Origin: Limnoperna fortunei
Lineage: Eukaryota > Mollusca > Bivalvia > Mytilida > Modiolidae
Reading direction: 5' to 3'
DNA: 64,000 nt
Assembly: GCA_944474755.1 (NCBI GenBank)
Contig: CALYDG010000030.1
Location: 1-64,000, forward strand
Shown: piece by piece, positions 2,576 through 63,903 of the stretch
Layout of the letters: each line of letters begins with the position of its first letter
Position numbering within the stretch: position 1 is the first letter of the stretch
Notes under the pieces: generated by a model
Database searches by the model: none
The model's input: the letters and a program-made list of their open reading frames with translations, nothing else
Told to the model about the DNA's origin: nothing
Program-made: the position numbers and the translations under genes

Positions 2576-2663
2576 GCAAAAGCAATGGAAGAGGCCAAGA
2601 AATATATCCTTTGGAAGAGAGATCAGGATGGCCTGGAGGTCAAATTTATTAATTCTACAATTG
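2576..2663 (+). CDS. Exon: N-terminal helix and first strand of the SET domain
   Basis: Acceptor 'ttttttcag' and donor 'gtaaat' bound an 88-nt exon entering in phase 0 and leaving in phase 1. It encodes a basic/acidic helix (EEAKKY...WKRD) followed by 'DGLEVKFI', which resembles the segment just before the SET domain of KMT5A/SET8. The split last codon joins the next exon to give 'STIGKGVFA', the conserved G-x-G-V-F-A opening of SET domains. A Met at codon 4 is unlikely to be the start because the frame is already open at the acceptor. Confidence 0.82.
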
Positions 2664-5600
2664 GTAAATAAACAAAAACTGTCAGCTTTTTTAGCTCACC
2701 TGGACCAAATGACCAAAGGATTGTAAAAAACAAGGATTTTTGTCATCTATACTTTTATTAAAAAATCTTCTCCTCAGAAATGGGTCAGTCAAATGCAACC
2801 AAACTTGGTATGCTTGTTCCTTAGGATGTCCTCTACGAAACTATCTTTTGGATTTTTTATCTATTGAATAACATGGCCGCAGTTGTTAAAAATAGAACAT
2901 AGGGATATCACCACCTTACGAGCATTTTAACTGAAAAACTATAGTAGATAGAAGAAATCTGAAGTCACCTTTCTTGTTCAGAATCAAAAGCTCTACAAAA
3001 GTCATTGGGTCGAAATTGTCAGAGGATTCCTTGTAAGCGTTATCTCTCTTGAACGGCATAAAATAGTGATTTTTGTCTTTTCTTGCCTGTAATTTGAGAA
3101 TGATAGTACTGGTAGATAGAGAAAAACTTCCAATTGCTGGAATGTTCAGCTCATTTAGCTCTACGATGGTCTCCATAGAGTCCAAGTTGACAGATTATTC
3201 TCTGTTAAATGTTCAAAATTAAAGATATTTGACATTTTCTGCCTGTAACATTAGAACAATTGTAGATAGAGAAAAACTTTCAATTGCTTAAATGTTCAGC
3301 TCATTTAGCTCTGCAATAGTCTCTATAGGGTTGAAGTTTTCAGACCATTCCTTGTAGGAGTTATCTCTCTTAAATGGTCAAAATTAGGGATTTTTGAAGT
3401 TTTTTGCCTGTAACTTGAGAACGATAGTAGATAGAAAAAACTTTCAATTGCTGAAATGTACATGTATATCTCATTAAGCTCTAAAATAGTCTCTATGGGA
3501 TCAACGTTGTCAAACATGGACAGCGTTGTTTGACTTCAAATTCAAATTCCGGTACATTCAAGGCTACTGCATGTGACATTAAAAGGTTTTGTTATTATAC
3601 CTCTGCTTCGAAGAAGGGTGGATATACTGTTATACCCGGGTCTGTCTGTCTGTTCTTTTGTTTGTAAGTAATAGAATTTCTGTTACAGGTTTCTAAGCAA
3701 CTAAATAAGATACAGGTCTGATATTTTGCATATAGCTTTGTCCTATAGTACCATATAGTGTATGCTTCAAAGAAGTGTGGATATACTGTTATACCCTTGT
3801 CTGTCTGTCCGTTCTTTCCTTTGTACGTAATAGAATTTCTGTTACAGGTTTCTAAGCAACTAAATAAAACAGGTCTGATATTTTGCATATAGCTTTGTCC
3901 TATAGTACCATATAGTGTATAGCAATTTTATGCTCCTAGGTCTTCTGCTTCCTGTTTGCTAAATACTTAGGATTTTACACACAGTGGACATAGTTGAAAA
4001 TATTTGTCAGTTTTCTAACCAACTACATGAGATACAGGTCTGATATTTTGCATATAGCTTTATCCTGTAGTTCCATATGTTGTATTGCAATTTTATACTC
4101 CTAGGTCACCTACTTCTTGTTTGCCGCATACTTGGATTTTTGCACACAGTGGACATAGATGAAAATTTTCGTCACAGTTTTCTAACCAACTACATTAGAT
4201 ACAGGTCTGATATTTATGCCCCCGTGAAGACAAGTGGGGGGCATTAAGTTTTACCCATGTCAGTCCGTATGTGTGTACGTACGTTCGTACAAATTTTCGT
4301 CACACTTTTCTCAGAAACCATACAGCAGATTGGCTTGATATTTGGTAGGGTGACTTAACATGATGTACTGTATTTTCTAAATGATTTTCAGATGGCTTGG
4401 ATAGCTACTTCCTGTTTTCTGATACTTAGATTTTTGAAATATCAAGCTTGATTGTGTACAAATTTTCGTCATACTTTTCTCAGAAACCTACATCAGATTG
4501 GTTTGATATTTGGTATAGTGACTAACCATGATGTATTATATGTCCTTATCGATTTTCAGATGGCTAAGATAGCTACTTCCTGTTTGCGTAGGGTGACTTA
4601 ACATGATGTACTGTATTTTCTAAATGATTTTCAGATGGCTTGGATAGCTACTTCCTGTTTTCTGATACTTAGATTTTTGAAATATCAAGCTTGATTGTGT
4701 ACAAATTTTCGTCATACTTTTCTCAGAAACCTACATCAGATTGGTTTGATATTTGGTATAGTGACTAACCATGATGTATTATATGTCCTTATCGATTTTC
4801 AGATGGCTAAGATAGCTAATTCCTGTTTGCGGATACTAAGATTTTAGAAATATCAAGCTTAATAGCATACAAATTTTTGTTGCACTTTTCTCAGAAACCG
4901 TACATCAGATTGGTTTTATATTTGGTAGGGTGACTAACCATATGTTGTAACTGCTGAAATGTTCAGCTCAATTTCTTCTAAGAAAGTCTCTATGCTAATG
5001 AAATGGTCAAACCGCTCCTGGTAGGAGTTTCTTGAAATGTCAAAAATGGCATTTTTTGTCGTTTTTTGTCTATAACTTGAAAACGTTACTTTGTAGATAA
5101 GAGAAAAACTTTCAATTACTGAAATGTTCAGCTCATTTAGCGTTATGTAAGGCTTCCTTGGGTCAAAGTTGTCAGACAACTTCTCGTAGGAGTTATCTCA
5201 CTTAAATGGTAAAAAATAGCAATTTTTGTTGTTTTTTGCATGTAACTTTTGAATGATAGCAGATAGAGAAAAACTTTCAGTAGATCAAATGTTCAGCTCA
5301 TTCAGCTCTACAGAACTCTTAATATGAGTGATATTGTCAAACAACTCCTTATAGGAGTTATCTCTCTTAAATGGTGAAATATAGCAATTTTTGTGGGTTT
5401 TTTTATTGTAACTTGAGAACCATAAAAGTTGGACAAAAACTTTCAGTAGCTGAAATTCTTAGCTCATTCAGCTCTACAAAAGTCTTCATAAGTCGAAGTT
5501 GTCAGACCACTCCTTGTAAGAGTTACCTCTCTTAAATTGTCGAAAATAGCAGCTTTTATTGTCTATTGGCTTGAATTGTCATATGACTTTATTTAGTATA

Positions 5601-8600
5601 TATTGCTGCTGAAATGACAAAAAAATTCCAGGTGAGCAATACAGGTCCCCTGGGGCCTTCTTGTTTGTTAAACATGTGAAATAAGGATAATTTTATGAAT
5701 AAATATGTATGAACAATTCAGGCTCCCTGTATCTCTTGTTGATATTTGTTTGCCCTGTAGACAGAAAATAATAGCAGTTAGAGAAATGCTTTTGCTTGCT
5801 GAAATATTCAACAAATTGAGCTATAAGAAACTAAAGGTTAAATGATGATAATTATCAGATATTTATAATTGGCCATTGAGCAGTTCATCCTATTGGGAAA
5901 CTCTTGTTTTCATAGGAAAAGGCGTATTTGCAAGAAAAGAATTCAGAAAAGGAGATTTTATTCTGGAATATCATGGAGAATTTATCCAGAAAAAAGAGGC
6001 TATGAAAAGACTGGAAGAGTATCCAGATGGTATTGGCAGTTATATCTTCTTCTTTAGGAGCAGAGACAACACCATATGGTATAGATACAGTTAAAGATAC
6101 TAAAACTAATTGATTGCCCTGCAATATATTATCAGTAAAGCAATTGATTTTTAATAAGAATGCAAATTTTTTTTGTAGTTGCAGGTTTGCTCATCATTTT
6201 GTAAAAAAAACAAACAAAAACAAAAAACAATGGAAAACTCATCGGCGCTTGACATGCGTTGATCAATGCAGTTTGAAGTCTTCATGTCTCAAGTCACCAA
6301 CAGGTGAATGTGAATACAAGCAGTAACAAGTTACATGTAAACGTATAAACAATTGTAGAATAAATGGTTATATATGTATTTTGACTAGAATTAGAACATG
6401 TAGAAACATGTATATAAAGTTCAGTAATAAATATATTAATTATAGGAAGACAATCAATTTACGACTGATAGACTAATTTTTACAAAAATTTTGCTGTTTT
6501 GACTAATACATCATTATTATCAGAATTAAACAAATGACAAAATTTCAATGTATTAGATAAGTTATCAAGTCAACAGGTAAAAGACTTTCTATTTCATGTT
6601 TAAAGAAGCTACACCGACATTCAAACAGATAATGATATTCATCACCAATAACAGATATGTTACAAAGATCAAATATACAGTTGTCTCTGATAACACCCCA
6701 AAGATGACCTTGTTCTATTGGTAATCTATGGTTTAAACATCTAAAATTACAATAAGATTTCCTTAAGTCATATGGCAATTCAATGAAATATTTTTCAAAA
6801 CTATGCATAGTTTTAAAAATTCTGTAATTAAGATATTTAGGTGTATCCAAAGCATTTTAATTGCCATTTAAACCAATTTAAAATTATCACATTATTTCTT
6901 TTTCACTGGTGTGCAAACTTCAATTTCACATAACTATTTCTATAAGATTCAATGTCAAAACATGAGAAAAATCACTGATTGCAACATAGTAATTCTTATA
7001 ACACTGATGCACATCAAATAATATACATGTAAATGCATTTGTTACCCTTTTCCGTCATGACCAATTCCTGAAACATCACTGGAAAATTCAAGGGAGGGGT
7101 TATAGACAGCACCCTCTCTGTCTCTTAATGTCCTTAAAACTAACATTATGGAACCCCACCCACCCCCACCACCACCACCACCAAAAAAAAAAAAGTACTC
7201 CAATTTCAAAGGATGTTGAGGGGGTTGCTTCACTAAGTAACTACTTATATCTTAAAAATTGTTCAGATCCCAACCCATAAACCATACATATACCAGGGCT
7301 GTACTTGCTTCTTGTAATAAGACAGACTTAATGCCTTAATGGGTGGGGGGGGATGCTTTTGGGGTTTTACTTCACCCAATTAAGTTCAAATTATTTGAGA
7401 TCTAAAAAATCTAAAAAAAAGACAGACTAAAAATACCTATTTTTGTGTTGTAAGTGGAGTTTCAGGGGTAATGACCCACCAAGTGTACAAATGATCTTAC
7501 AATTTAACTTTTATGTTTTGATATGTGCATATTTGAGTCTATAGCAGATTTTGTGTCCAACCTGAATATTCAATATTTGTGTGTCCAAAATGATCTGTGT
7601 GTCCACATCCCACCTCAACATACACAGTTTTGCAATTGCTGCATCTGTATCATCCTGCACTTGGTGTAAATTTATTCCTCAATCTGTAGAAAAGCACTTG
7701 AAAATCTCAGACACTGAAGTGGAAAGATATTTTTTGGTTTCCTACGTGTCAAGAAAAGTACGGTTATTGTTTAGAAAATAGTTTTTTATGGCATTTGATA
7801 TACATGGAAAAAGGGCAACCTTGTGTAGAGCTTTGTTATATGGGAGGGGAGGGGGAAATGTAAATTGGGACATTTTGCAATATGCCAAATAAGTGAAATA
7901 GATAGGGAAAAGACAAATATTTTCTCTTAAGATTTTATCTTTTAATCCGTTTCTCACATATGACTTGGAAAAGAGGTATGCACACGTGACTTGGAAAAGA
8001 GGTATGCACACGTGACTTGGAAAAGAGGTATACAATGGACACATTTTTAGTCATTGACAACCTTACACCTCACAGACAAATCAAGGAAAATGACTGTGCT
8101 GTTATGAGCTATTAAACTGACTGTTAAATAATCTATTAGAAATCATAAGAGAAATAGGTTTCACAGATCGTGACAGTTGAGGATTGCCTAATATCCACTC
8201 TCATTATTTAATAAGATAACCAGGTTGCCACAGGCTTGATAGATATGCTTTTGAAATTAAATATATCTAGTATATACGAGGCCATTCTCAGTTGTTGCTC
8301 ATTATGAAACTAATACTTGTCTTTATTTCAGCATTGATGGAACATTTTCAAACAGAATGGGACGCATGGTAAATGATGGAATAGGACATGAGCAGAATGC
8401 TGCCATGCGATTAGTGGAGGTTGATGAGAGGCCACATCTGGCAATGTTTGCCATAAAAGACATAAAGCCAGGAGATGAAATTAAGTATGACTATGGTGTA
8501 AAGGATTTGCCCTGGAGAAAGAAGAGAACTGTTGATAAAAAAGGTAACAAGTGTTATAATTATTTACATATTTATATCACTTTATAGCTCAAAGGATTGA

Positions 8601-56600: not shown

Positions 56601-59600
56601 GCCCTTTGACAGTAAAATAACAGGTTTCAGACTTTTTAGATCACCTGATTGAAGGCCAGGTGAGATATTGTCATCACTTTGCGTCCATCGTCAAAACTAT
56701 TTCAAATGTCTGATTGGATTTTATCCAAATTTAGCATGTTTGTTTGTTATCCATTAAAACAACTGGCCTATTACTTGAAAACGGTTTATGATACCAAAAA
56801 AAACTGTCTTTTGCTGGAATGTTGAGCTTATTGAGCTCTACATAACTTAAATAAGTTTCCAAGTACTCAGCCAAACCCTTACATGGTTATTGCCCATGGT
56901 CTCCATTGGTCCATCACGATTTTGTGGGTGCAAATCCTCTGAGCCATTGAATAGATTTTTTTGCTGAAATTTTGTAGGATTGTTTGTCCCTATATGTAGT
57001 TGATCGTAACACAGTGTCATTTGGATTTGACAAGCTTTGTCTTAGGAGTTGCAGGACTTTATCGACTTTGTGCATTTACATTCATAGTAGCACTTTGTTG
57101 GCGCAACTTTATGAAACCGATGAATGGATTTTGCTTAAATTTTATGTGATTGTTTTCTACCATATCAGTTTAATCATTTCCTACCGTTATTTTCATTTAA
57201 TTTTGATTATAGTTATTGACTTTTTCAACTTTGACATTTTTCAATTTTTATGCAGTGGCTATGTGTAGCATCCTTGTGTTTCATTGAGCATGATTGATTT
57301 TTATGAAAATTATGGGAACATTTTAAATAAATAACTATTGGGCATTTGGTATGTGGGGCATAATATTTGTCTCCTTGACACAGTAACGTAACACTTCTTT
57401 AAACACAACTGCACTAAAATGTTGTGCAGTGGCATACCTTTCCCAAGTTTTAAGTTTATTATTGTTTAATATTAGTATAACCAAAGCTGACTACAGGTCA
57501 ACTCTGTCTAGCTGTCTGTAGGTTGCAGAATCAGTGTACTTAAAGATTCATGGTTGGATCCTATGATTGGTTGTAAATTTCATGTAGTTTTTTCTGACTT
57601 TTTCTCTCTAGACACATTTTCTAGGATGGTTTTGACAAATGACACTATCCTTCGAAAAAGACAAAAAAAAGGCTGTTTAGTTGAAAGGTAGAATAATGCC
57701 ATTTAGTACCCCTATGTAGAGTTCTTTATGAGTAGGCTCCTCAGTGTCCCTACGAAGGCTACACTTGTACCTTGCCAACAGGGGAGCTTAAGCTTGTTTC
57801 CCAATCCAGTGTCAATAAATATGTTAAGAACAGGAGGTGGTATGCCGATTAGCATTAAACATGGTAAAATGAATGGCACACATAATCATGCACATAAACA
57901 CAGAAAAATTATAGGCCTGCATTTTTTTAAATGCAGATTTTTGTCAACCTAGCGCAACCTCTGGATAAGGAACTTAAGTTCTTTTATTGGGAGGGTTTAA
58001 TTGAGAAAAAAAAAACAAAATAAGTTTGCAATACTTCTGCAGTGGATTTCACAAAAAGTCGTAAGTAAAAAACCTGTGGTAAGTAATGACGTCATAATGG
58101 ATTTTTCTTTGATCTTCTGAACACTTACGATGGATTTTACACTTAAGACTCTTTGTGAAATCCACTCCTGTTATGTAAAAAATACTTATTGATATCAATA
58201 CAATGCATAAAGCATGATGAGGATTAAGCCCTCTTAGTCTTGAACAATATGAAAACCTAAACAGCAATGTCTAAGGCTAGATTTATGATGTGTGATGATA
58301 CAACGTTCATTGCCATTTTTGGAAGGAAAATATATTCTGATTTGAGAACTTTACATTTCAGAGTTCATTTCAAATTTTGTCACTGACATCTCCCTTTATG
58401 AGCTAATTGACAACTCAAAGGTGATTGAAGAAGAAGATGTAACAGTTAAACCAGAGGACATAAAGAGTTCTAGAGATTTGCTTCTGAATGTAAGAGTTCA
58501 AAATGCTGTGAAGCAGTACTTCTCCAGTGATGCTTGGCTTGCTGTTAAGAACACTCTAAAAATGATTGAAGGTTTGTATATATTGAACTCTCAAAATGAT
58601 CTTTAGCTCATTTTCACCAAAGCATGCAAAGGTCTATATGAGCTATTGTTATAACTTGGCTTGGTATTCACTGTCACTCCACAATATCAGTGGTTAGGGC
58701 TTCAGTCTTGTCTGTTAAACATTTTCTTCAAACATCTACTTCACTGAAACCACTTACATAATTCAATGAAACTTTGCCTTGGTGTTTCTAAGAATGTACT
58801 CCACAAATGTAGTATTTTTATACTGTGGTTGCTTAATACTGCGCTTTACAGTAACAGTGCCGACACTGTTAAAATTAGAAGCGTCGAAAAGATGATGGTG
58901 TTAAAAAAATGTCAACACAACAAAACCCTGCGATTTCTTTTGCTGACTTGTGAATGATAAATAAAGAACCATAACGAGATGAGAAAGAAATGTTAAGGGG
59001 TGGGCAAATGCATGGGTTTTTCAACTTTCCGGAACTTTGAGGATGTCTTTCCAATGGGTACTAATGCCTAAAAACTGACTTTCCCATTGGGGAAACTCAC
59101 CACTCCTAGAACACTGTTACCATTAATTTAAATAGATCATAGGAGTCTGAGAACAAATTCCTACTAATATCTTACTGAAAACTGTTGATTTAGCTTTAAT
59201 ATGCCAGCAGATAAAATTGTTAAGCATGATTAGAAAAATCCATAGCTAATGTTTCAAAATAGTCTGTTAATGACACTGTTTTTGCTCCATAATTGGATTG
59301 TTTTTCAAGTTTGCACCTCTAAAAATCTACTTCTTTTAAACCATTGAAAAGAATTCAAGGAAAGGATGGAGCATTGTTCCTTAGGATATCAGGCTTGCCA
59401 ACTTTTCAAAATGCTGATGGGGGATTTTTTGCGGGAAATTTTTGTGGATGTAATTTGAGGTGTTTTTTTCATGGGTTACAGCGAAAGAAACAACTTAAAG
59501 TATAACAACATTTTATATTAAAATGATTCTGCACTGTATGTATGATAAGCACTACATATACTTTCTGATGTGAAACTTCAAAAACATTAATTGATCATGT

Positions 59601-62600
59601 CACAAAGTATAATGTAAGTGATCACTATCCTGTATGTATTTCTAGGAAAGAAATTATGAATACAGAGAAAAATTCCCATAACCATATTAACATATAGAAA
59701 TTTCAATAATTTTTATGAAAAAACTTTCTTGGATGACCTCACTGCAGCCTCGTTTTATACTATTGAATTTGAAAGTGATACCTCAAAATGTTTAAGCTTG
59801 TTTTATAAAATATTTAATGAAGTAATTAACAAACATGTCCCAGTTGTTACAAAAAGAGTCAAAAGAGATAAACAACCTGAATGGTACACTAAAGATGTAA
59901 TAAATGCAAGAAAAATGAGAGATAAATATAAAAATCATGGTATGTGGCCTGAATATAAAATATGGAGAAATAAAGGTCACCCAATTAACTGATAAAGCTA
60001 AAAAGAAATATTATGAAAATATGGTAAAAAATTCTAAGGATCCAAGATGTCTTTGGAAATGTATTCATAGCTTAAACCCATCAAATCATGTAAAACCATA
60101 TGAACTAACTGAAGGAGATGACATCAGTACACAGGATGTTACTAAAATGACAAATATATTTAATGAATTTTTCACAACATGTGTTCAAAATCTGAGAGAT
60201 ACATAAACAAGTACAACTCCAAAGTTACCAAATTTTGATAAACTGAGAGATTTTGTACAAAACAAAGTGTCTAACAATCAGTTTTCTATTCCACACATAA
60301 CAACACCAGATCTATTACTACAAATGAGTAAACTTGATGTGAATAAGTCATCTGGAACTGACAATATAGGACCTAAACTGCTTAAATTAAGTGCACCCAT
60401 CATTGCATCCCCTTTAACATATATTTTTAACAGAATGATTGACACTGGCACCTTTCCAAAAGAATTTAAAAATGCCATGGTCACACCAATCTACAAATCA
60501 GGAAATCGTACATTCCCAACCAATTACAGACCAATTTCAGTATTACCAACAATATCAAAACTAATTGAAAGCCATGTACACACTCCACTCATCTCTATAA
60601 ATATCTTTCAAAACTTAATCTGCTACATCCTGCCCAATCAGGTTTCAGACCTGGTCACTCATGCCAAACAGCACTTATTAACATTGTTGATAAATTTATA
60701 GAAGAAATGAATAATGGAAACATCAATATTGCCATTTTCCTAGACTTAAAAAAAAGCATTGGATGTTGTAGATCCCTCTATCCTCTGTCAAAAATTAGAG
60801 ATGTATGGCATCGATAAAAACAGCATACATTTTTTCCAGTCTTATTTAGAAGATAGATCTCAGCAAATTCAAATACAAAATGTTCAATCTAAAAAATGTT
60901 CTATTAAATATGGTGTTCCTCAGGGGTCAATCCTTGGACCCCTTTTGTTTTTATTGTATATCAAAAATTACTATTTTCGAAAACTTGTGTCACAAAAACT
61001 TTCGTTGCAGTTTTTTTTGCAACTACATGCTACAGCCTCTTGATATTTGGTATGTAGCTTTTTCCTGTAGTACAATAAGATGTAAAGCGATTTTATGACA
61101 GAAAAATTACTACTTCCTGTTTACCGAAAACTTGCCTTACACAGGCGACATGTCTTCAATGGAAGACTGCAATTCCAGTTTTTTAGGTGCATTTTTACCT
61201 TTCCTAACAATAGCACATATAGGGATAACTATTAGTCTCCTTGCATCATCGTCATCCATGTCTTAGTTGTCATAAGAACTTCCATCACAGTTTTCTAAGC
61301 AACAGCTTGCAGTGGGCTCCTGCTATTTGGCTGACAGCTTCATCCTATGTTATACTGTTGGCAGTTATTGTTCTTACTAATCTTATTCCTGTTTAGCGAC
61401 CAAATTTAGTGAATTGGGCAATAGGCACACAAGTTTTTATCACATTTTTCTTAGCAACTACATACAGTGATCCTTGATGTTTGCCTTACAGTTTTATGCT
61501 AAGGTATTGTAAAGTGTAGCAATTTCATGGGGGGCCAGCCCTCTTCTTAAAGACTTAATGAATTGTAGCAACTAACATGTGTCTTCCTCTTAAGCAGATG
61601 CCATTCTAGTTTTAGATTAATATTAACAATTTGTACAAATCTGTTAAAACTGATTTTTATTATCCAGGAACTCCAAGAAACATTGAAGATGAAACTACTG
61701 AGCCAAAGGTATGTTGCAAGAAGATAACAAAACAATCATGTCCTTAATAATGAAAAGGCTCATTCAAACGCAACCAAACTTGATGTGGTTGGTCATTTTG
61801 GTGTCCTTTACAAAACTATTGTTTGGATTTTTGATCCATTGAATAATATGGTCTCATAGGGGGTAAGACCACCTTTAGAGCATTATAACTCAAAAACTAT
61901 AATAGATAGGAGAAATCTGAAGTCACCATCCTTGTTCAGAATGAAAAGCTCTACAAAAGTCTCCATAATGAGTTGAACTTGTCAGACAGCTCCTTGTAGG
62001 AGTTATCTCTTGAAAGGTAAAAAATTGCATTTTTCTGTTTTTTACCTGTAACTTAAGAACAATATAGTAGAAAGAGAAAAACTTTTAATTGCTAAAATGT
62101 TCAGCTCATCAATCTCTACAAAAGTCTCCAATGGATCAAAGTTGTCAGACCACTCCTTATAAGAGTTATCTCTCTTAAATGGTAATTGGATTTTTTGTGG
62201 CTTTTTCACCTGGAACTGGAAAACAATAGTAAATGAAAAAAAAATTAATTGGTTTGAATTGTCATATGACTTTTTGCATGAGCAAATTGCCTCATTATGG
62301 CAAAAATTGCCAGTTACTTGAAAGCAATTGTAGATAGAGAAAAACTTTTAATTGCTGAAATGTTCAGCTGCATTGGCTCTATAAAAGTCTCCATTTGGAA
62401 GTTGTCAGATGACTCCTTGTAGGAGTTATCTCTCTTTAATGGTCAAAAAAGGGATTTTTGTCGTTTTTTGCCTGTAACTTGAGAACGAAAGTAGATAGAG
62501 AAAAGACTTCATATTGCTGAAATGTTCAGCACATTTAGCTTTTCATTGAGTGGAAGTTGTCACACGACCCCTTGTAGGAGTTATCTCTTTTTAATCGTCT

Positions 62601-63903
62601 AAAAGGGCAATTTTTGTTGTTTTTGGTCTGCAACTTGAGTACCACTGTAGATAGAGAAAAACTTTCAAATGCTGAAATGTTCAATTCAATAAGCTCCACA
62701 AAAGGTTTGAAGTTGTCAGATAGCTCCTAATTGTAGGAGTTATCTCTCTCTAATTTTTGAAAAAAGGGGCTACTTTTTTTTTTACCTGTAACTTGCAAAT
62801 CATAGTAGATAGAGAAAAACTTTAAATTGCTGAAATGTTCAGCTCAATTAGCTATACAAGTCTTTTTATAGGTTTCAAGTTGTCAGATGACTCTTTCTCT
62901 TAAATATTGACAAAAAAATCCAGGTGAGTGATACAGGCCCCCCTGTGGGCTTCTTGCTTATATTAAGCCTCTCTTTGTCATCTATTAAACCCTTACAAAA
63001 TAATTTTCCTGCAATTTTGACAGAAATTGACAGCTTTTCCCCTCTCCTTGCAAGGATATATTTTCCAGTGATGTTGCCCCGTCGTAAAAGGCGACTAAAA
63101 GTGCCAATACCCTGGCTGGCATGTTAGGCCGGTTTGCCTAAAGACCGTCTGGGATGTGCGCCCAGGTGGCTGAATGGGGTACCCCTGGCAAGCTGGGGTT
63201 GTCAGGAAATAATACCGAAAACCTGACCGCAAACCATATTAGTGCACCATGTTGGGAAAATTGCCATGTTCCCCGCACGTTAAAGAACACTGCTGTAGTT
63301 TTCACTATGAGTAGGGATTGAGATCCTGCTACAGGAGGCTAAATTGCCTGACCCTACCCATCCTCCCATTTTCCAGTGGCATTCTAAAGTTTGTTGCCCC
63401 TATTTTTCATTGTTACCCATCCCATTTTCATTCATCATTTCATGTTCTTTTTATCATCCATTTCATGTTCATCGCCTGAATATAGCTGAAAAATTGCTGC
63501 TCGGGCGTTAAACACAAACAATCAATCAATAAATCCAGTGATGTCAGTGTGCGATTCTGGCTCCTTGATGCCCCTAGTTCTTTTCTAAATTTAGTTTTAC
63601 TGATCTTTTAAAGTTTTTTTCTGAAATTTTCAAAACTTTACTAAAATAATTCTTTATGTTTTTATGCTAAAAATGAATTGGTAGCATACAAACATAGTAC
63701 TTATAAAATTTGATGTACATTTACTGATTTTTTACTATTGTAGAATATAGTGTTGCCAGAAAGTGATATAAGGAGGCAGTGCAAAGATTCTAGAAAGTAT
63801 AAAGTTGATGAAAATGAATCTGATTATAAACCTTCTGAAGTGGGCTCCAGTGAAAATGATTATTTTGAAGATATGGAGATTGAAGAAGAAATACCAATGA
63901 AAG
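2576..63903 (+). CDS. Giant multi-exon gene: SET + Ulp1-type protease + zinc fingers + tyrosine recombinase (partial at both ends)
   Basis: Chained + strand exons: 2576-2663, 5916-6078, 8332-8543, 9889-9923, 11316-11370, 12025-12062, five 45-nt exons (16006-16050, 16710-16754, 17839-17883, 23088-23132, 23344-23388), 24838-25146, 28411-28444, 30767-30876, 32676-32792, 34625-34693, 37580-37668, 42290-42407, 42847-42952, 50230-50667, 53007-54650, 55339-55398, 58362-58571, 61668-61708, 63744-63903. Every border is AG/GT and every junction keeps frame, giving about 1,440 codons (residue numbers in other entries count from the first codon seen here). Domain order: SET (about 19-146), helical segment (273-375), C48 protease (about 387-590), C2H2/C2HC fingers (749-846), tyrosine recombinase (to about 1275), acidic tail. 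No stop, polyadenylation region or new start is evident between domains, so I infer one transcript. Two or three adjacent same-strand genes cannot be excluded without RNA data. The start codon and end lie outside the window. Confidence 0.72.
3595..4215. repeat. Family C tandem repeat, nested in family A
   Basis: Two monomers begin 'gcttcgaagaagggtgga' and 'gcttcaaagaagtgtgga' about 165 bp apart. Each carries 'ggtctgatattttgcata' and 'tatagtaccatatagtgta'. Two further shorter copies follow at about 3950-4215. Confidence 0.7.
4213..4935 (+). repeat. Family B repeat with a 243-bp internal tandem duplication
   Basis: Head 'gcccccgtgaagac...ggggggcattaagtttta' followed by monomers with 'tttctcagaaacc', 'gatatttggta' and 'ctacttcctgttt'. 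The block starting at 4348 is repeated at 4591 almost identically, a recent local tandem duplication of two monomers. The element lacks the normal 'gggggcatctgtgtcc' end. Confidence 0.75.
5916..6078 (+). CDS. Exon: SET domain N-half (GKGVFA, GDFILEYHGE)
   Basis: 163-nt exon, acceptor 'gttttcatag', donor 'gtatag', phase 1 in and phase 2 out. It encodes G-K-G-V-F-A, then 'KGDFILEYHGEFI' and 'YIFFF', which match in order the SAM-binding G-x-G, the 'FVVEYHGDL' strand and the 'YMYYF' segment of the KMT5A/SET8 family. SET proteins of this class transfer methyl groups from S-adenosylmethionine to lysine, and SET8 itself monomethylates histone H4 K20. The substrate here is unknown. A longer read-through frame extends past 6078, but the homology ends exactly at the donor. 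Confidence 0.88.
6545..6850 (-). pseudogene. Non-LTR retrotransposon 3' end fragment
   Basis: A 101-codon minus-strand frame contains 'YCNFRCLNHRLPIEQG' and a C-x2-C...I-G-D-E-Y-H-Y-L-F-E-C motif. This pattern of a C-terminal zinc knuckle and 'GDE-x-H-(F/Y)-L-F-x-C' follows the reverse transcriptase in many invertebrate non-LTR retrotransposons. Only the tail remains. Confidence 0.7.
7156..7194. repeat. Low-complexity CCACC/poly-A tract
   Basis: A run of C-rich triplets (ccaccacc) followed by about 12 A. Simple sequence only. Confidence 0.9.
7560..7660. repeat. Dispersed repeat, also at 11775-11880
   Basis: 'tgtgtgtcc' / 'atgatctgtgtgtcca' and following bases occur in both places with moderate divergence, within otherwise unrelated introns. 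Confidence 0.6.
7962..8033. repeat. 26-bp minisatellite, about 2.8 copies
   Basis: Unit 'gacttggaaaagaggtat' + 'gcacacgt' repeats at 7962, 7988 and 8014 almost without change. Confidence 0.92.
8332..8543 (+). CDS. Exon: SET domain C-half with N-D-G in place of N-H-S
   Basis: 212-nt exon, acceptor 'ctttatttcag', donor 'gtaaca', phase 2 in and phase 1 out. The junction codon gives 'TICIDGT', aligning with the 'YCVDAT' of SET8. Next come R-M-G-R-M-V-N-D-G (residues 92-100), 'PHLAMFAIKDI' and 'GDEIKYDYG' (131-139), the last containing the Y-D-Y-G motif that forms the methyl-transfer channel. The usual N-H-S knot is N-D-G: the Asn is kept and the His is lost. I recall similar N-D variants in KMT5A-like proteins of fish and invertebrates. 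This supports an intact fold, but activity needs testing. Confidence 0.88.
8690..9100 (+). repeat. Family B element
   Basis: Two monomers (about 169 bp apart) with 'ttttactcatgtc' at the head and 'ggcattagtgtcatatggacacattctctct' type end. One translated frame, 8682-8873, reads F-S-E-T-I-H-Q-I...M-A-W-I-A-T-S-C-L, shared with other copies. Confidence 0.75.
9295..9712 (+). repeat. Family B-related element with full head and tail
   Basis: Head 'gcgacgacatgtcagggg' plus a 'cgtccgtc' simple run, two diverged monomers ('aagcttttctcagaaac' twice, 160 bp apart), tail 'gcgggggcatccgtgtcc' and 'tggacacattctt'. Confidence 0.78.
9889..9923 (+). CDS. Exon: 35-nt linker
   Basis: A small exon bounded by 'tctttcacag' and 'gtaatg', phase 1 in and phase 0 out. 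It encodes a polar Q/S/K-rich linker (D-L-K-I-Q-S...) after the SET domain. It is called on splice signals and phase match only, with no domain recognised. Confidence 0.6.
10318..10770. repeat. Three diverged tandem monomers of about 160 bp
   Basis: 'tataacttgaaaacctg', 'gatatcttgaaagcatt' and 'gatatcttgaaaatgtg' recur at about 10395, 10552 and 10711, each followed by 'ctgattttg' or 'cttattttg'. Non-coding. Confidence 0.65.
10838..11268 (+). repeat. Family B element, two monomers
   Basis: Head 'atgccccagcgacgatatg', two monomers with 'agaaactgtacatcagattgg', tail 'gcgggggcatctgttttc' and 'tggacagattctctcttt'. Confidence 0.8.
11316..11370 (+). CDS. Exon: 55-nt basic linker
   Basis: Bounded by 'tgtatttcag' and the strong donor 'gtatgt', phase 0 in and phase 1 out. 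It encodes a basic stretch rich in R, K, L and C (including C-F-I-K-L-Q-R-L-C-R-K). No known domain. The phase continues correctly on both sides. Confidence 0.62.
12025..12062 (+). CDS. Exon: 38-nt linker
   Basis: Bounded by 'ttatttgcag' and the consensus donor 'gtaagt', phase 1 in and phase 0 out. It encodes a short polar segment beginning D-C-K-F-Y. No domain recognised. A TIR transposon is inserted only 23 bp downstream. Confidence 0.6.
12086..12665. mobile_element. TIR transposon (580 bp) with AATTT target duplication
   Basis: Left end starts 'aaaggaccagattcac' and right end is the near inverse, '...gtgaaccaagtccttt', over about 38 bp. It is flanked by 'aattt' at 12081-12085 and 12666-12670. 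A 111-codon frame inside has no recognisable domain, so it is a non-autonomous DNA element. Confidence 0.82.
12671..13450. other. Intron, nothing recognised
   Basis: AT-rich with stops in all frames and no clear repeat match within the window. Confidence 0.4.
14191..15180. repeat. Family B element, minus then plus oriented
   Basis: 14191-14286 and 14955-15040 read as family B in reverse ('ggacacagatgcccccgcg', 'gaagtagctatccaag'). From about 15045 the copy turns to plus orientation ('ttttactcatg...cttggatagccacttcctg'), giving a head-to-head arrangement. The minus part is itself interrupted by the TIR element 14287-14954. Confidence 0.72.
14287..14954. mobile_element. TIR transposon (668 bp), TTA target duplication
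   Basis: Ends 'agg(a)tgcattatacagtt' and 'aactgtataatgca(ccc)' are inverted copies. Flanking TTA at 14284-14286 and 14955-14957 restores the family B sequence when the insert is removed. A 3-bp TTA-type duplication would suit PIF/Harbinger-like elements, but no transposase is present. Confidence 0.85.
16006..16050 (+). CDS. Duplicated 45-nt exon, copy 1
   Basis: Acceptor 'acattgtag', donor 'gtaaac'. The exon has exactly 15 codons, phase 0 in and out. It encodes V-S-E-V-D-H-I-D-L-T-C-R-E-Q-Q. It sits at the end of a repeated intronic unit beginning near 15340. Because it is a symmetric 0-0 exon, any number of copies could be included without frame change. Function unknown: short, acidic, one cysteine. 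Confidence 0.7.
16710..16754 (+). CDS. Duplicated 45-nt exon, copy 2 (possible longer form to 16865)
   Basis: Same acceptor and donor as copy 1. It differs in L-P-C-T versus L-T-C-R. Uniquely, the frame stays open through the donor and on to 16865, where another donor ('gtaatt') occurs, so a 156-nt phase 0-0 exon is also possible. A separate exon 16771-16865 (acceptor 'attgttttag') is another option, but its 95-nt length would break phase. Confidence 0.68.
16771..17116. other. Segment unique to unit 2, flanked by 'attg(tg)ttttag'
   Basis: In other units 'attgttttag' runs straight into 'agttgaaatg'. Here 346 bp lie between, ending 'attgtgttttag'. Its first 95 bp keep an open frame with the copy 2 exon. 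It could be ancestral exon sequence lost elsewhere or an insertion with a short flanking duplication. Confidence 0.6.
17839..17883 (+). CDS. Duplicated 45-nt exon, copy 3
   Basis: Acceptor 'acattgtag', donor 'gtaaac', 15 codons, phase 0-0. It reads V-S-E-V-D-Q-E-D-L-P-C-R-E-Q-Q. The flanking intron is a further copy of the repeated unit (17117-17883). Confidence 0.7.
17930..18780. other. Insertion in unit 4, unidentified
   Basis: The repeated unit breaks off at 'caaatcaagttat' near 17930 and resumes at 'tattcctcaaaatta' near 18780. The inserted about 850 bp starts 'ctgtcactgcggtcc' and shows no coding frame or clear terminal repeats. Confidence 0.55.
18964..19683. mobile_element. TIR element (720 bp) with terminal repeats of about 75 bp
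   Basis: Left 'tatggaacgcagtaacc' and right 'ggttacagtgttccata' are inverted copies, with the match continuing through 'actttaatgagaaaaaccc' and 'ttaagttacttaatcc'. The interior holds three copies of a block with 'gctgagaaaaacctag'. Non-coding. Confidence 0.85.
19807..19945 (-). mobile_element. Short insertion carrying a ribozyme-like relic
   Basis: Interrupts the repeated unit between 'gtaggtaaat' and 'caaagattat', flanked by 'aaaatt' at 19801-19806 and 19946-19951. Penelope-like elements and retrozymes carry hammerhead motifs, which fits the fold described for 19837-19880. Confidence 0.6.
19837..19880 (-). ncRNA. Hammerhead-ribozyme-like motif, probably inactive
   Basis: On the minus strand: stem I 'gcgcct' pairing with 'aggcgt', core 'ctgatga', stem II 'gtct'/'agac' with a 5-nt loop, then 'gatac' where the consensus is 'gaaac', a minimal stem III, and the cleavage triplet 'gtc'. 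Everything fits a type I hammerhead with short stem III except the A-to-U change in the invariant GAAA, expected to reduce or abolish cleavage. Confidence 0.7.
20327..23071 (+). mobile_element. Insertion: decayed Penelope-like retroelement plus family B fragment
   Basis: The insertion is flanked by 'attcat' at 20321-20326 and 23072-23077 and splits the repeated intron unit. The first about 2.4 kb is a frameshifted reverse-transcriptase-type ORF. The end (22885-23050) is a truncated family B copy with the usual 'ctatggacacattctctct' tail. The part 22755-22860 ('gtttggcaccataaaacc', 'accattctttt') recurs at 28127-28230. Confidence 0.72.
20369..22760 (+). pseudogene. Penelope-like reverse transcriptase, multiply frameshifted
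   Basis: Frames in order show 'LHLPFKNKGIDAI' (about 20770), 'HVITGDLKIIEKD' and 'PKFREPQRINWNHN' (21030-21140), 'AYCDTIYNYSGINHMWILKN' (21670-21730), 'FDFSTLYITLSHDKL' (RT motif A, about 21790-21835), 'YIDDVLS' (motif C, about 22180-22200) and 'NERDDFNFKIINFPNM' (about 22360-22410). The order matches a reverse-transcriptase family common in bivalves that I take to be Penelope-like. Stops and frameshifts rule out function. The 129-codon frame at 20369 is likely its N-terminal part but is not recognised. Confidence 0.72.
23088..23132 (+). CDS. Duplicated 45-nt exon, copy 4
   Basis: Same borders. The first codon is GGG rather than GTG, giving G-S-E-V-D-H-E-D-L-P-C-R-E-Q-Q. Its upstream intron was split by the 2.7-kb insertion at 20327-23071, which ends only 16 bp before the exon and leaves the 'ttcattacattgtag' acceptor but a new branch-point region. 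Splicing of this copy may therefore be altered. Confidence 0.65.
23344..23388 (+). CDS. Duplicated 45-nt exon, copy 5
   Basis: Acceptor 'acattgtag', donor 'gtaaac', phase 0-0. It reads V-S-E-V-D-Q-A-D-L-P-C-R-E-Q-Q. Only 211 bp separate it from copy 4, because this unit lost most of its intronic part. Confidence 0.7.
23728..24430. repeat. Mixed repeat heads and unremarkable intron
   Basis: Heads of three repeat families occur: 'atgcccccgctttgaagaag' (23729), 'agtccctatcggctaaagg' (24086) and 'tcctgccacacaaaagttg' (24203), and 'atgccccagtgacgac' at 24398. Each is followed by a diverged or truncated body. Confidence 0.55.
24838..25146 (+). CDS. Exon: 103-codon charged helical segment, probable coiled coil
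   Basis: Acceptor 'tatttttaaag', donor 'gtatat', phase 0-0, 309 nt. The product is almost entirely charged and helical: A-M-E-K-I-Q-K-I-K, 'EYINRVKQFKDSKDDKEY', 'LLEEMLIRHLEDLDSV', 'RQQRKRTVDEIQSVLDEHI', 'RAWELHDEQISQE'. Leu/Ile spacing suggests coiled-coil or helical-bundle dimerisation. No named domain is recognised. A TIR element starts 23 bp beyond the donor. An ATG 18 bp before the acceptor gives a read-through frame that could serve as an alternative start. Confidence 0.75.
25169..25886. mobile_element. TIR element with GC-rich head and three to four 180-bp monomers
   Basis: Ends 'gtctcgcctgc' (25169-25179) and 'gcaggcgagac' (25876-25886) are a perfect 11-bp inverted repeat. After a 'cggcggcgg' head, monomers start at about 25251, 25431, 25611 and 25785 with 'gtaagacttttgtggaaaat'. 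One monomer contains half of the fold-back sequence found at 26728. It starts 23 bp after the exon donor at 25147. Confidence 0.85.
26314..26722. mobile_element. Possible TIR element (about 410 bp)
   Basis: 'tttatcctgcaatta' at the left and 'aattgcaggataaa' at the right are inverted. Target duplication is unclear, and no coding frame of note. Confidence 0.55.
26728..26871. mobile_element. Fold-back MITE, near-perfect palindrome
   Basis: The first 39 bp ('atattagtgtactagctccg...') are inverted at the end with one mismatch, and complementarity continues inward through 'cccttt'/'aaaggg'. This would form a long hairpin. A half copy sits at about 25327-25395. Confidence 0.88.
27670..28250. repeat. 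Repeat heads and Penelope-associated 3' fragment
   Basis: 'atgccctgcctacgaaagta' head at 27672. 28127-28230 repeats the 'ccataaaacctggtttaacc' and 'ccaagtcaggaccattgtgg' sequence seen after the reverse transcriptase relic at 22770-22850; a weaker copy is at 45975-46060. Confidence 0.6.
28411..28444 (+). CDS. Exon: 34-nt lead-in to the protease domain
   Basis: Acceptor 'tttttttcag' and consensus donor 'gtaagt', phase 0 in and phase 1 out. It encodes R-V-E-K-V-M-T-D-D-L-D. Phase and strong splice sites support it; no domain by itself. Confidence 0.6.
28508..29110. repeat. Two truncated repeat elements
   Basis: 'gtctcacctccaattgagac' (28513) heads a diverged pair of monomers with 'tttttgggct' and 'aactataagtcctagg'. 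'atgctccccgaaggcagag' (28834) heads another. Confidence 0.55.
30090..30219. mobile_element. Palindromic MITE, copy 1
   Basis: Ends 'gatttcacaaaaggtcgt' and 'acaacattttgtgaaatc' are inverted. Same family as 58039-58168, which lies in the opposite orientation. Confidence 0.85.
30767..30876 (+). CDS. Exon: N-terminal part of Ulp1/SENP-like protease
   Basis: 110-nt exon, acceptor 'ctccatacag', donor 'gtaatg', phase 1 in and phase 0 out. It encodes 'ITQIWTGRL' through 'ITANSLMSLADELTDE'. The L-x-D-E just before the next exon's 'ILDGYF' matches the 'L(N/S)DE-x-I-x-x-Y' opening of the C48 peptidase family. Confidence 0.75.
31410..31640. repeat. Repeat with 'cccctaccggc' head
   Basis: 'agcccctaccggcttcatgg' and 'gggactgtagatttgcactc' match heads at 24086, 32938 and 47093. 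The body is short and diverged. Confidence 0.6.
31932..32463 (-). pseudogene. L1-like non-LTR retrotransposon with internal deletion
   Basis: Minus strand first shows the RT entry motif 'HMETGKSPGSDGFTVEY' and 'FFWKDIG' (32380-32320), then jumps in another frame to a C-terminal C-x2-C...H-L-F-F-E-C motif ('FCKTCDDILEHLFFEC', about 32150-32095). Most of the polymerase core is missing, so this is a deleted dead copy. Confidence 0.75.
32676..32792 (+). CDS. Exon: Ulp1/SENP-like protease, substrate-groove segment
   Basis: 117 nt, acceptor 'tttattttag', donor 'gtaagt', phase 0-0. It encodes 'ILDGYFHIL' followed by a segment ending 'PELHEYLTQ'. In C48 proteases the 'D-E-x-I-x-x-Y-(F/L)' helix precedes the central core. 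Match is by motif order and spacing relative to the following catalytic exons. Confidence 0.78.
33029..33437 (+). repeat. Family B element, complete, with simple 'tagtcccctaccgg' repeat just upstream
   Basis: Head 'atgcccatgcgacaacacg', two monomers 169 bp apart, tail 'cgggggcatctgtgtccta' and 'tggacacattctctcttta'. A 143-codon frame spans both monomers without a stop. A separate family G head lies at 32938. Confidence 0.8.
34625..34693 (+). CDS. Exon: Ulp1/SENP-like protease, catalytic His (H-W-T-L)
   Basis: 69 nt, acceptor 'tttaattttcag', donor 'gtatgt', phase 0-0. It encodes 'YDFIFGAINEGENHWTLT'. The H-W-x-L motif (His at residue 481) carries the catalytic histidine in Ulp1/SENP peptidases, which cleave SUMO or related modifiers. 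Confidence 0.85.
34925..35540. repeat. Family A monomers with an inverted segment
   Basis: Family A motifs occur on the plus strand, then inverted at about 35070-35205 ('gaacatttcagcaatataaagtttttc'-type), then plus again with 'gtaggagttatctctctt'. Confidence 0.6.
36190..36490. repeat. Dispersed repeat, second copy at 43390-43605
   Basis: Shared 'catattggtatggta', 'ctggctgtgacct', 'cattcc(g/c)gcttactgacaaa' and 'aggtgagctttgtaatcg'. Non-coding. Confidence 0.75.
37580..37668 (+). CDS. Exon: Ulp1/SENP-like protease, catalytic Asp (I-I-D-P)
   Basis: 89 nt, acceptor 'tatattaag', phase 0 in and phase 2 out. It encodes 'IIDPKQKKILYFNPLG' then 'TRLCANQLLHNW'. Asp 488 is the expected second triad member. 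Two donors are possible: 'gtagta' after 37665 or the consensus 'gtaagt' after 37668. I prefer the latter because it restores an N-W-Y junction. Both keep the frame. Confidence 0.8.
37890..38860. repeat. Family A cluster
   Basis: Several diverged monomers ('gtctctaaataggtcaaa', 'gctgaaatattcagctt'). A second head 'actcacctggaccgaaag' is at 38141. Confidence 0.6.
39259..40437. repeat. Pair of direct repeats about 240 bp each, 0.94 kb apart
   Basis: 39259-39500 and 40203-40437 share 'agaagttct', 'aaaacaccaacc', 'cgaagggaccaacaaaagga' and 'caggtccgtctatgatttgt' in the same order. The segment between is AT-rich with no gene. Confidence 0.82.
40438..42289. other. Intron, mostly unrecognised
   Basis: Contains a local 90-bp duplication near 40842/40935 ('attgctaaaaccagaaac'), but no gene or complete element that I can identify. 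Confidence 0.4.
42290..42407 (+). CDS. Exon: Ulp1/SENP-like protease, catalytic Gln and Cys
   Basis: 118 nt, acceptor 'ttattttag', donor 'gtaact', phase 2 in and phase 0 out. It encodes 'KQQDGISCGVYVLK'. The catalytic Cys (548) lies six residues after Gln 542, the same spacing as the oxyanion Gln and Cys of yeast Ulp1. With His 481 and Asp 488 the H-D-Q-C set is complete, so the protease is predicted active. The modifier it acts on is unknown. Confidence 0.87.
42847..42952 (+). CDS. Exon: C-terminal helix of the protease domain
   Basis: 106 nt, acceptor 'tgtattcag', donor 'gtattt', phase 0 in and phase 1 out. It encodes 'IAECFINEETLEF' and 'VYRRQIGEKLLLNI', the helix typical of the end of C48 domains (…R-R-x-I-x-x-x-L-L). 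Its phase 1 exit fits directly to 50230. Confidence 0.8.
43807..43850 (+). CDS. Possible alternative 44-nt exon (frame conflict)
   Basis: Good acceptor 'ttttatttcag' and strong donor 'gtaagt' enclose codons for D-K-D-L-I-I-D-S-D-E-T. It accepts the phase 1 exit of 42952 but leaves in phase 0, whereas the next exon (50230) needs phase 1 and would hit a stop if joined directly. A weaker donor at 43858 would make it a 51-nt exon that keeps frame. It may instead be an alternative-end exon, or an intermediate exon may be missing. Confidence 0.45.
43905..44916. mobile_element. Family E TIR element with six monomers of about 160 bp
   Basis: 'tggccggatttc' (43905-43916) and 'gaaatccggcca' (44905-44916) form a perfect 12-bp inverted repeat. 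Inside, 'aactactaatcacag', 'gatatttggtatgcagc' and 'ctacttcctgttta' repeat six times with high similarity. It starts 55 bp after the donor at 43851. Confidence 0.9.
44940..45770. repeat. Family A-type element, diverged
   Basis: Starts 'ggctcacttggacaaatcc' and 'gacatcacttggtgtc'. Monomers carry 'ttagctaaaat' and 'tcctt(a/g)ggacatt'. No coding frame. Confidence 0.55.
46376..47065. repeat. Family D tandem element, four monomers
   Basis: 'ctcagcaactacatgccaca', 'tatttggtatgtag', 'gtaaagcgattttatg' and 'ctacttcctgttta' repeat four times about every 150-160 bp. A truncated copy at 60970-61130 interrupts a retrotransposon. Confidence 0.85.
47093..47220. repeat. Family G fragment
   Basis: Head 'agtcccctaccggcaaagcc' and 'ggggactataggtttgcac' with a truncated body. 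Confidence 0.65.
47470..48950. mobile_element. Family A element interrupted by family F tandem array
   Basis: Family A monomers at 47490-47612 and 48495-48930 end with 'ccaggtgagcaatacagg'. The middle (about 47612-48420) is a separate array: 'ttgcaacgaaattgcactcg' head, then five monomers at about 160-bp spacing with 'actttgggatattgttacat' and 'tcaaggtcacagcag'. Confidence 0.72.
49340..49585 (+). repeat. Family B element, single monomer
   Basis: Head 'acccccaggacgacgagtcg', one monomer, tail 'gtgtcctatggacacattct'. A small internal deletion removes the 'gattttcagat' part. Confidence 0.8.
50230..50667 (+). CDS. Exon: 438-nt acidic low-complexity linker
   Basis: Acceptor 'ttttttcag', donor 'gtaata', phase 1-1. 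The product is rich in D, E, Q, N, T and S (for example 'DFDFDEL', 'DTVDTVDT', 'NNDTNTDPASQNISNN'), and looks intrinsically disordered. It joins the protease to the recombinase half. The sequence 'VEIVGHFDFDEL' could be a short interaction motif. No domain recognised. Confidence 0.75.
51066..52450. mobile_element. TIR transposon (1,385 bp), non-coding
   Basis: Left 'atacagtacacaca' and right 'tgtgtgtactgtat' begin inverted repeats that extend about 35 bp with three mismatches. Flanked by ATT on both sides (51063-51065, 52451-52453). No transposase frame, so a non-autonomous element. Confidence 0.85.
53007..54650 (+). CDS. Exon: two zinc fingers plus tyrosine-recombinase domain
   Basis: A single 1,644-nt open exon, acceptor 'cttcttttcag', donor 'gtgagt', phase 1-1. 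The upstream in-frame ATG at 52982 precedes the acceptor and is probably not used. Finger 1 is C-x2-C-x9-H-x4-H (residues 749-767). Finger 2 is C-x2-C-x11-H-x3-C (827-846). The C-terminal half has tyrosine-recombinase boxes: Arg 1101 in 'YNGRRGGE', a Lys-rich strand 'SKLAKLVPVIIP', 'TSMRHYVAT' (Arg 1224; the usual box II His is Thr 1221), 'KHMGHS' (His 1250) and Tyr 1259 in 'ENVYQ', nine residues after that His as in XerD. Such enzymes cut and rejoin DNA through a 3'-phosphotyrosine link. Crypton/DIRS-type transposons and domesticated relatives carry them. The exon fits a former mobile recombinase captured by a host gene, or a still-mobile one. Confidence 0.85.
55339..55398 (+). CDS. Exon: 60-nt acidic tail segment
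   Basis: Acceptor 'tttatttcag', donor 'gtaagt', phase 1-1. It encodes 'DEMIETESKEEELVQTENIE', strongly acidic. It follows the recombinase domain directly. No domain. Confidence 0.68.
58039..58168. mobile_element. Palindromic MITE, copy 2 (inverted relative to 30090-30219)
   Basis: 'gcagtggatttcacaaaaag' and 'ctttgtgaaatccact' are inverted ends. The reverse complement aligns with 30090-30219 along its length. Confidence 0.85.
58362..58571 (+). CDS. Exon: 210-nt helical segment after the recombinase
   Basis: Acceptor 'ttacatttcag', donor 'gtttgt', phase 1-1. It encodes an acidic start ('SLYELIDNSKVIEEED') then 'VQNAVKQYFSSDAWLAVKNTL', an amphipathic helical stretch that looks folded. Not recognised; it could be a protein-interaction module. 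Confidence 0.7.
59585..60962 (+). pseudogene. Jockey-like non-LTR retrotransposon, broken
   Basis: Order of motifs: 'SDHYPV' (endonuclease end, about 59620), 'KQPEWYTKDVINARKMRDK' (59870-59925), 'LDVNKSSGTDNIGPKLLK' (60335-60385), 'FKNAMVTPIYKSGN' and 'NYRPISVLPTISKLIE' (60465-60570), and 'YGVPQGSILGPLLFLLYI' (60908-60962). Several frameshifts and stops. It ends abruptly where a family D copy begins, before the catalytic Y-x-D-D. Confidence 0.82.
60963..61500. repeat. Family D copy and related monomers
   Basis: 'aactacatgctacagcctc', 'gatatttggtatgtag' and 'ctacttcctgttta' at 60963-61130. A more diverged related repeat continues to about 61500. It truncates the retrotransposon reading frame. 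Confidence 0.75.
61668..61708 (+). CDS. Exon: 41-nt tail segment
   Basis: Acceptor 'tttattatccag', donor 'gtatgt', phase 1 in and phase 0 out. It encodes G-T-P-R-N-I-E-D-E-T-T-E-P-K. Short and polar, and supported by splice signals and phase continuity. Confidence 0.62.
61745..62945. mobile_element. Family A element, six to seven monomers
   Basis: Monomer motif 'gctgaaatgttcagc' occurs at 62354, 62516, 62671 and 62829 (spacing 155-162 bp) with diverged copies before. Ends 'ccaggtgagtgatacagg' at about 62920. Confidence 0.75.
63075..63533 (+). mobile_element. SINE-like retroposon with 11-bp target duplication
   Basis: Flanked by 'tccagtgatgt' at 63064-63074 and 63534-63544. The body begins 'tgccccgtcgtaaaagg', has an A-box-like 'gtggctgaatgg' near 63166 and ends in 'gggcgttaaac' plus 'aatcaatcaat'. 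The tail is common in mollusc genomes. The B-box-like 'ggattgagatcc' near 63315 is only approximate. Confidence 0.8.
63744..63903 (+). CDS. Exon: 160-nt acidic tail segment, last exon in window
   Basis: Acceptor 'actattgtag', donor 'gtaatt', phase 0 in and phase 1 out. It encodes 'RRQCKDSRKYKVDENESDY' then an acidic run ('ENDYFEDMEIEEEIP'). The basic patch followed by acidic clusters resembles a nuclear-protein tail. The gene continues past the window. Confidence 0.68.

Follow-up and report, generated by a model that had tools for sequence, protein, structure and literature searches.

A Limnoperna fortunei locus that looks like one gene joining SET, Ulp1-type protease and tyrosine recombinase domains

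The window analyzed here, a stretch of 64,000 nucleotides (nt) from the bivalve Limnoperna fortunei (assembly GCA_944474755.1, contig CALYDG010000030.1, positions 1 to 64,000), carries on its plus strand what is very probably a single gene spanning a SET methyltransferase domain, a C48 (Ulp1/SENP-type) cysteine protease and a tyrosine recombinase (YR). Twenty-three exons were placed between 2576 and 63903, all on the plus strand; they are listed with their entry and exit phases and the grounds for placing them, P numbers being our handles for the window (P0001) and for related proteins.

2576-2663, + strand: SET exon 1 AKAMEEAKKYILWKRDQDGLEVKFINSTI; phase 0 to 1; aligns to P0034, P0037 and P0027
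5916-6078, + strand: SET exon 2 (GKGVFA...SRDNTI); phase 1 to 2; Pfam SET 1.9e-06 on the open reading frame (ORF)
8332-8543, + strand: SET exon 3 (CIDGTFSNRMGRMVNDG...KYDYG); phase 2 to 1; Pfam SET 1.6e-08 on the ORF
11316-11370, + strand: post-SET exon LTRPCFIKLQRLCRKQLK, weak; phase 0 to 1; E 0.009 with a hidden Markov model (HMM) built on the post-SET block in three relatives
16006-16050, + strand: repeated 45-nt linker exon, copy 1 VSEVDHIDLTCREQQ; phase 0 to 0; five copies, alike flanks
16710-16754, + strand: repeated 45-nt linker exon, copy 2; repeat copy
17839-17883, + strand: repeated 45-nt linker exon, copy 3; repeat copy and codon-plus-splice scan
23088-23132, + strand: repeated 45-nt linker exon, copy 4; repeat copy
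23344-23388, + strand: repeated 45-nt linker exon, copy 5; repeat copy
24838-25146, + strand: candidate BAG-domain exon (BAG4/SODD-like); phase 0 to 0; Pfam BAG 4.5e-13 on the ORF, PDB BAG4/SODD 1.8e-12
30778-30876, + strand: C48 exon 1 (IWTG...LTDE); phase 0 to 0; motif and phase
32676-32792, + strand: C48 exon 2 (ILDGYFHIL...); phase 0 to 0
34625-34693, + strand: C48 exon 3, catalytic His (NHWTLT); phase 0 to 0
37580-37668, + strand: C48 exon 4, Asn for the catalytic Asp (YFNPLGE); phase 0 to 2
42290-42407, + strand: C48 exon 5, Gln and catalytic Cys (QQDGISCGVY); phase 2 to 0
42847-42952, + strand: C48 exon 6 (IAECFINEE...); phase 0 to 1
43807-43850, + strand: linker exon DKDLIIDSDETSGAV; phase 1 to 0; codon-plus-splice scan
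50230-50667, + strand: acidic exon before the recombinase; phase 1 to 1; codon-plus-splice scan
53007-54650, + strand: two zinc fingers (by eye) with the core-binding and catalytic domains of the tyrosine recombinase, one 1,644-nt exon; phase 1 to 1
55339-55398, + strand: acidic linker exon; phase 1 to 1; codon-plus-splice scan
58362-58571, + strand: conserved block after the recombinase LLLNVRVQNAVKQYFSSDAWLAVKNTLKMIE; phase 1 to 1; about 48% identical in this block to P0003 and P0006
61668-61708, + strand: small linker exon TPRNIEDETTEPK; phase 1 to 0; present already in the phase-blind scan list
63744-63903, + strand: acidic exon, beyond which the relatives' C-terminal domain would lie; phase 0 to 1; codon-plus-splice scan

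That SET, C48 and recombinase follow one another in this order on one strand, as a preliminary description of the DNA had claimed, is borne out by the Pfam, PDB and model matches. Spliced, the SET exons (2576-8543) encode a full SET domain (Pfam 8.7e-20) whose best PDB match, and thus closest solved structure by sequence, is KMT5A/SETD8. The motifs GKG, EYxG and YDYG are kept, and the difference from KMT5A falls at the NHS motif, where ND stands in place of NH (NDG in the window, NDS or NDA in the seven relatives aligned). The six spliced C48 exons match Pfam Peptidase_C48 at 1.9e-13 (51.2 bits against a cut-off of 20.7) over profile positions 79-206 of 217, the best Pfam stretch covering the exons from 34625 onward; SENP1, the best PDB match, aligns to residues 28-189 of 199, and the related proteins P0037 and P0034 cover nearly the whole domain (BLASTP 1e-29 and 1e-23). 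Compared with SENP1/Ulp1, its closest solved structure by sequence, the catalytic triad of the window protease is incomplete, with His, Gln and Cys present but Asn at the catalytic Asp, a residue that P0034 and P0037 both have. KMT5A/SETD8 and SENP1/Ulp1 are separate cellular enzymes. Another C48-like piece, AVTIDNNW near 39009, was dropped as out of order, the 37580 exon joining 42290 in phase without it.

The recombinase exon reaches Phage_integrase at 4.1e-06, exactly at the curated Pfam cut-off, and its predicted model has a core-binding and a catalytic fold resembling integron integrase, XerH and Cre. An alignment of the window with 27 relatives (28 rows) shows the box I Arg in every row, whereas the box II Arg, the box III His and the Tyr nucleophile each have a single gap and are present in the other 27; the HxxR position, which we take to be that of the box II (tetrad) His, is Thr in 27 of the 28, again with one gap. 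When 51 proteins were searched for the motifs of both boxes, 46 had them; P0012, P0024, P0025, P0026 and P0020 did not, the last solely through the Gly following HMGH. A recombinase profile run against PDB sequences gave seven matches up to E 1 (MBP fusions at 0.0098 and 0.063, zinc fingers, an envelope protein), and these were set aside, none being a recombinase. Viral or bacterial relatives were not confirmed among 10 pattern stretches from viral_contigs and six from genome_contigs, which, with one short pattern per scan, is weak evidence.

Whether these blocks belong to one gene is addressed by the exon phases and by relatives. About 25 exons with consistent phases had been claimed at the outset. 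Most of this stands, with 19 junctions phase-consistent and free of stops (2 among the SET exons, 12 between 16006 and 43850, 5 between 50230 and 63903), but three places show a direct mismatch: 8543 to 11316, 11370 to 16006, and 43850 to 50230. At each of these a small exon was missed or a boundary is wrong. The best phase-fitting fillers, 10935-10969 and 49350-49386, have low scores and lie in or beside dispersed repeats, and they are not claimed as exons; a further candidate, 28411-28444 (score 7.6), falls between BAG and C48 and was left unplaced. Moreover, the 19 agreements are not all independent, because exon 30778 was selected by motif jointly with phase and the boundaries of the weak exons were set by reading frame. 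As a chance control, the codon-plus-splice scan was applied at one threshold to both strands and returned 13 candidates on the plus strand against 2 on the minus strand; the codon table had been trained on 5 of the 13, and among the remaining 8 is a false exon (59844) inside a retrotransposon fragment. No start exon was found within the window. Both ends of the gene lie outside it, and the relatives' C-terminal domain is beyond reach.

The nearest named proteins to the window's longest ORF are oyster proteins. Precomputed annotation lists SET in 11 of 29 related proteins (P0027-P0031 and P0033-P0038, from S. cucullata, C. virginica, S. echinata, C. gigas (= M. gigas), O. edulis and A. irradians) and for none of the other 17 once a twelfth, P0051 of Clytia, is counted apart: it has a partial SET match (phmmer 0.0014) and the source name "SET domain-containing protein". 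C48 occurs in four of the 29 (P0034-P0037, two loci) and Herpes_teg_N in five (P0003, P0004, P0027, P0032, P0033), such that six proteins from three species combine SET, a protease and a recombinase in a single chain, with C48 in four models and Herpes_teg_N in two. The preliminary description had named beforehand the absence of such linkage in related species as grounds for giving up its proposal of one gene joining the three domains. SET, C48 and recombinase stand in one protein in O. edulis LOC125662490 (P0034; SET at 64-175, C48 at 258-426, integrase at 994-1120) and in the models of C. virginica LOC111112653 (P0035-P0037), in the window's order and with a C-terminal domain. These linked models, together with the SET-recombinase pairing in the 11 proteins, support the one-gene proposal, and the numbered isoforms of several relatives' gene models are taken to mean RNA support. 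An earlier composite search had found one protein among 330 candidates, matching SET and not C48. The further statement that no protein of this exact order was described holds for the literature, in that open-licence PMC full text (subscription papers and preprints being outside its scope) returned no paper on SET-protease-recombinase proteins or on the six loci searched by name; for databases it does not, since the unnamed models P0034 and P0035-P0037 have that very order. The clusters of P0017, P0008 and P0032 hold 167, 82 and 58 member sequences, either many copies or merely many samples.

The models that share the window's domain order are not its closest recombinase relatives. P0034 and P0037, both named uncharacterized and without BAG, have recombinases 42% and 40% identical to that of the window and in another clade, whereas those of S. 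cucullata LOC134268369 (P0027, with an N-terminal SET) and S. echinata LOC133175710 (P0003) are nearer (56% and 58%) and in the same clade, but have in the place of C48 an unrelated cysteine protease, Herpes_teg_N. Against PDB, the Herpes_teg_N of P0027 retrieves one deubiquitinase, a weak match (E 0.83); in the window, the HMM made for this domain gives a best E of 0.93, on the minus strand, and hence no evidence of it. An earlier recombinase tree of the 51 proteins had left out P0001 (the window), P0035 and P0036 (same locus as P0037), and the distant P0024, P0025 and P0026. In a 19-row tree of the window and 18 of the 45 relatives, the window groups with two environmental sequences (98/98) inside an eight-row clade (100/99), whose five oyster proteins have Herpes_teg_N (P0003, P0004, P0027) or no protease that we found (P0028, P0015). 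Forcing the window into the C48 clade (P0034, P0037 and the environmental, recombinase-only P0017) is rejected by the approximately unbiased (AU) test at p 0.0004, and forcing it there with its two sisters at p 0.0014, values somewhat favorable to rejection in that the constraint groups were named after the first tree was known. The SET tree of nine relatives (P0035, P0036, P0051 and P0019 omitted) is weak, with two of seven inner branches starred; it does not reject a grouping of the window with P0034 and P0037 (p 0.44) and does reject one with P0027 (p 0.026). Protease type and recombinase lineage disagree; therefore the protease slot has changed at least once, either because one protease was lost and another gained or because paralogues recombined.

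The region between SET and C48 has features on which the preliminary description was silent, as it was on the Asp-to-Asn change in C48. The five 45-nt linker exons encode VSEVDxxDLPCREQQ-like peptides and have nearly identical flanks, and are a case of exon multiplication in the linker; copy 3, the one checked, has a stop in both alternative phases. Repetitive stretches between SET and recombinase also occur in P0037 (KDAKEQP-type), P0028 (a Pfam beta-roll match) and P0051 (DKDTNEVEKN-type), different in each species. The BAG exon, between these linker exons and C48, has a weak splice acceptor and is phase-compatible on both sides, which makes it a candidate part of the gene. Across the 51 proteins compared, BAG gave nothing significant (best E 0.33).

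Short repeats abound in the window, whose sequence is AT-rich. Tandem arrays at 43984-44902, 47677-48345, 3604-5562 and 62316-62859 have units mostly of about 155-170 bp, also of 243 and 75 bp, and related copies are scattered across the window. In the intron before the last exons, ORFs at 59660-61043 (+ strand) resemble a non-LTR retrotransposon, with RVT_1 at 60750-61040 (1.5e-06, just under the Pfam cut-off). An ORF run at 20354-22500 is, by eye, what we take to be a decayed Penelope-type reverse transcriptase (RT), and two minus-strand ORFs, 6548-6856 and 31935-32309, are presumably C-terminal ends of non-LTR elements; Pfam gave no match on the tested piece 21577-22077 of the former nor on the latter two. 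As to membership of DIRS or Ngaro, the RVT_1 fragment is the single RT trace by Pfam, and none of the 23 relatives scanned with Pfam shows an RT family.

Among known systems, the nearest parallels are Cryptons and the host genes derived from them. According to Kojima and Jurka (PMC3212892), a C48 peptidase accompanies the YR in the oomycete elements CryptonF and CryptonS, an association that the window gene shares; the R-H-R-Y tetrad given there for Cryptons differs from the present family, where the presumed tetrad His is Thr. The words "SET domain" occur nowhere in that paper. Domesticated Crypton genes (ZMYM2/3/4, QRICH1, KCTD1, KIAA1958, WOC) are, like the gene in the window, host genes with a YR-derived domain, but the same paper reports the YR catalytic site as lost in every domesticated DUF3504 domain, and the window family largely keeps it.

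The best reading of these data, and one we hold to be rather probable, is a vertically kept family of chromatin-acting recombinases, seemingly genuine and, as far as we can tell, not yet described. An intron-rich gene would encode a nuclear protein comprising a KMT5A-like SET domain, a repetitive linker, a Ulp1/SENP-type cysteine protease, two zinc fingers, the tyrosine recombinase and a conserved C-terminal domain. Its family includes several paralogous oyster lineages; SET is also present in a member from a scallop and, in part, in one from a hydrozoan, and it is absent from recombinase relatives in a gastropod and a sea urchin. DNA binding would fall to the zinc fingers, the core-binding domain and the C-terminal domain, and strand cleavage and rejoining, by way of a covalent tyrosine intermediate, to the recombinase; SET and protease may alter methylation and SUMO or ubiquitin marks, on chromatin or on the protein's own complex, such that reaction or silencing can proceed. 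The recombinase may derive from a Crypton-like mobile element, with the N-terminal half added afterwards and one slot swapped between C48 and Herpes_teg_N. The nuclear role, catalysis, Crypton origin, a single transcript in L. fortunei, and a gene that the host maintains by vertical descent instead of one still on the move are what we infer from the sequences.

It is very unlikely that three or four adjacent same-strand genes (SET; BAG; C48; recombinase) have been joined here by chance phase. Such an arrangement would account for the long gaps (8.5 to 30.8 kb and 43.9 to 50.2 kb), the three unmatched phases, and an intervening BAG exon of another family, but it sits poorly with the same domain order in single O. 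edulis and C. virginica proteins, with SET-Herpes_teg_N-recombinase in S. cucullata, with the 11 SET-recombinase matches, and with runs of 12 and 5 stop-free junctions in phase. One of the two main rivals is that a Crypton-like YR transposon, mobile to this day, has taken SET and C48 into its transposase gene, and that the copy in the window is an intron-bearing or decaying insertion; this we regard as a possibility of some standing, albeit an improbable one. Several loci exist per oyster species, four of them named for C. virginica among the matches, and the sisters of the window recombinase come from environmental contigs. PMC3212892 describes animal Cryptons without terminal repeats, some oomycete CryptonF/S elements encoding C48 beside the YR, and domesticated DUF3504 genes that, unlike this family, do not keep their catalytic residues. 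Against it stand the length of the gene, over 61 kb, its more than 20 exons and the repeats that fill its introns; no element ends were recognized, though no search was aimed at them, and the paralogues are diverged, with few members per species in one clade.

In the other main rival, the recombinase of a host gene was domesticated as a non-catalytic DNA-binding scaffold, as in ZMYM2/QRICH1, leaving SET and protease as the working parts. The family-wide replacement of the box II His would fit this, as would the known fate of animal Crypton genes in PMC3212892; against it, the active-site Arg, Arg, His and Tyr are kept in 27 or 28 of 28 rows and both boxes are found in most of the proteins searched, and we regard a scaffold as unlikely. 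Going beyond the chromatin-acting family that we prefer, it is conceivable, if decidedly speculative, that these bivalve host-gene recombinases are catalytically competent and perform programmed or regulated DNA rearrangement, the built-in methyltransferase and an exchangeable SUMO/ubiquitin protease opening or marking chromatin at the site.

An animal family of many-exon genes in which most of the active site is kept and is linked to a histone-type methyltransferase and a SUMO/ubiquitin-type protease would amount to a DNA recombinase of animals that brings its own means of acting on chromatin. The swap of C48 for an unrelated protease in members that keep SET and recombinase suggests that the protein has to remove a ubiquitin-like modifier in order to function. 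This leads to predictions, testable in farmed oysters, on the identity of the modifier taken off and on the sites of DNA cleavage.
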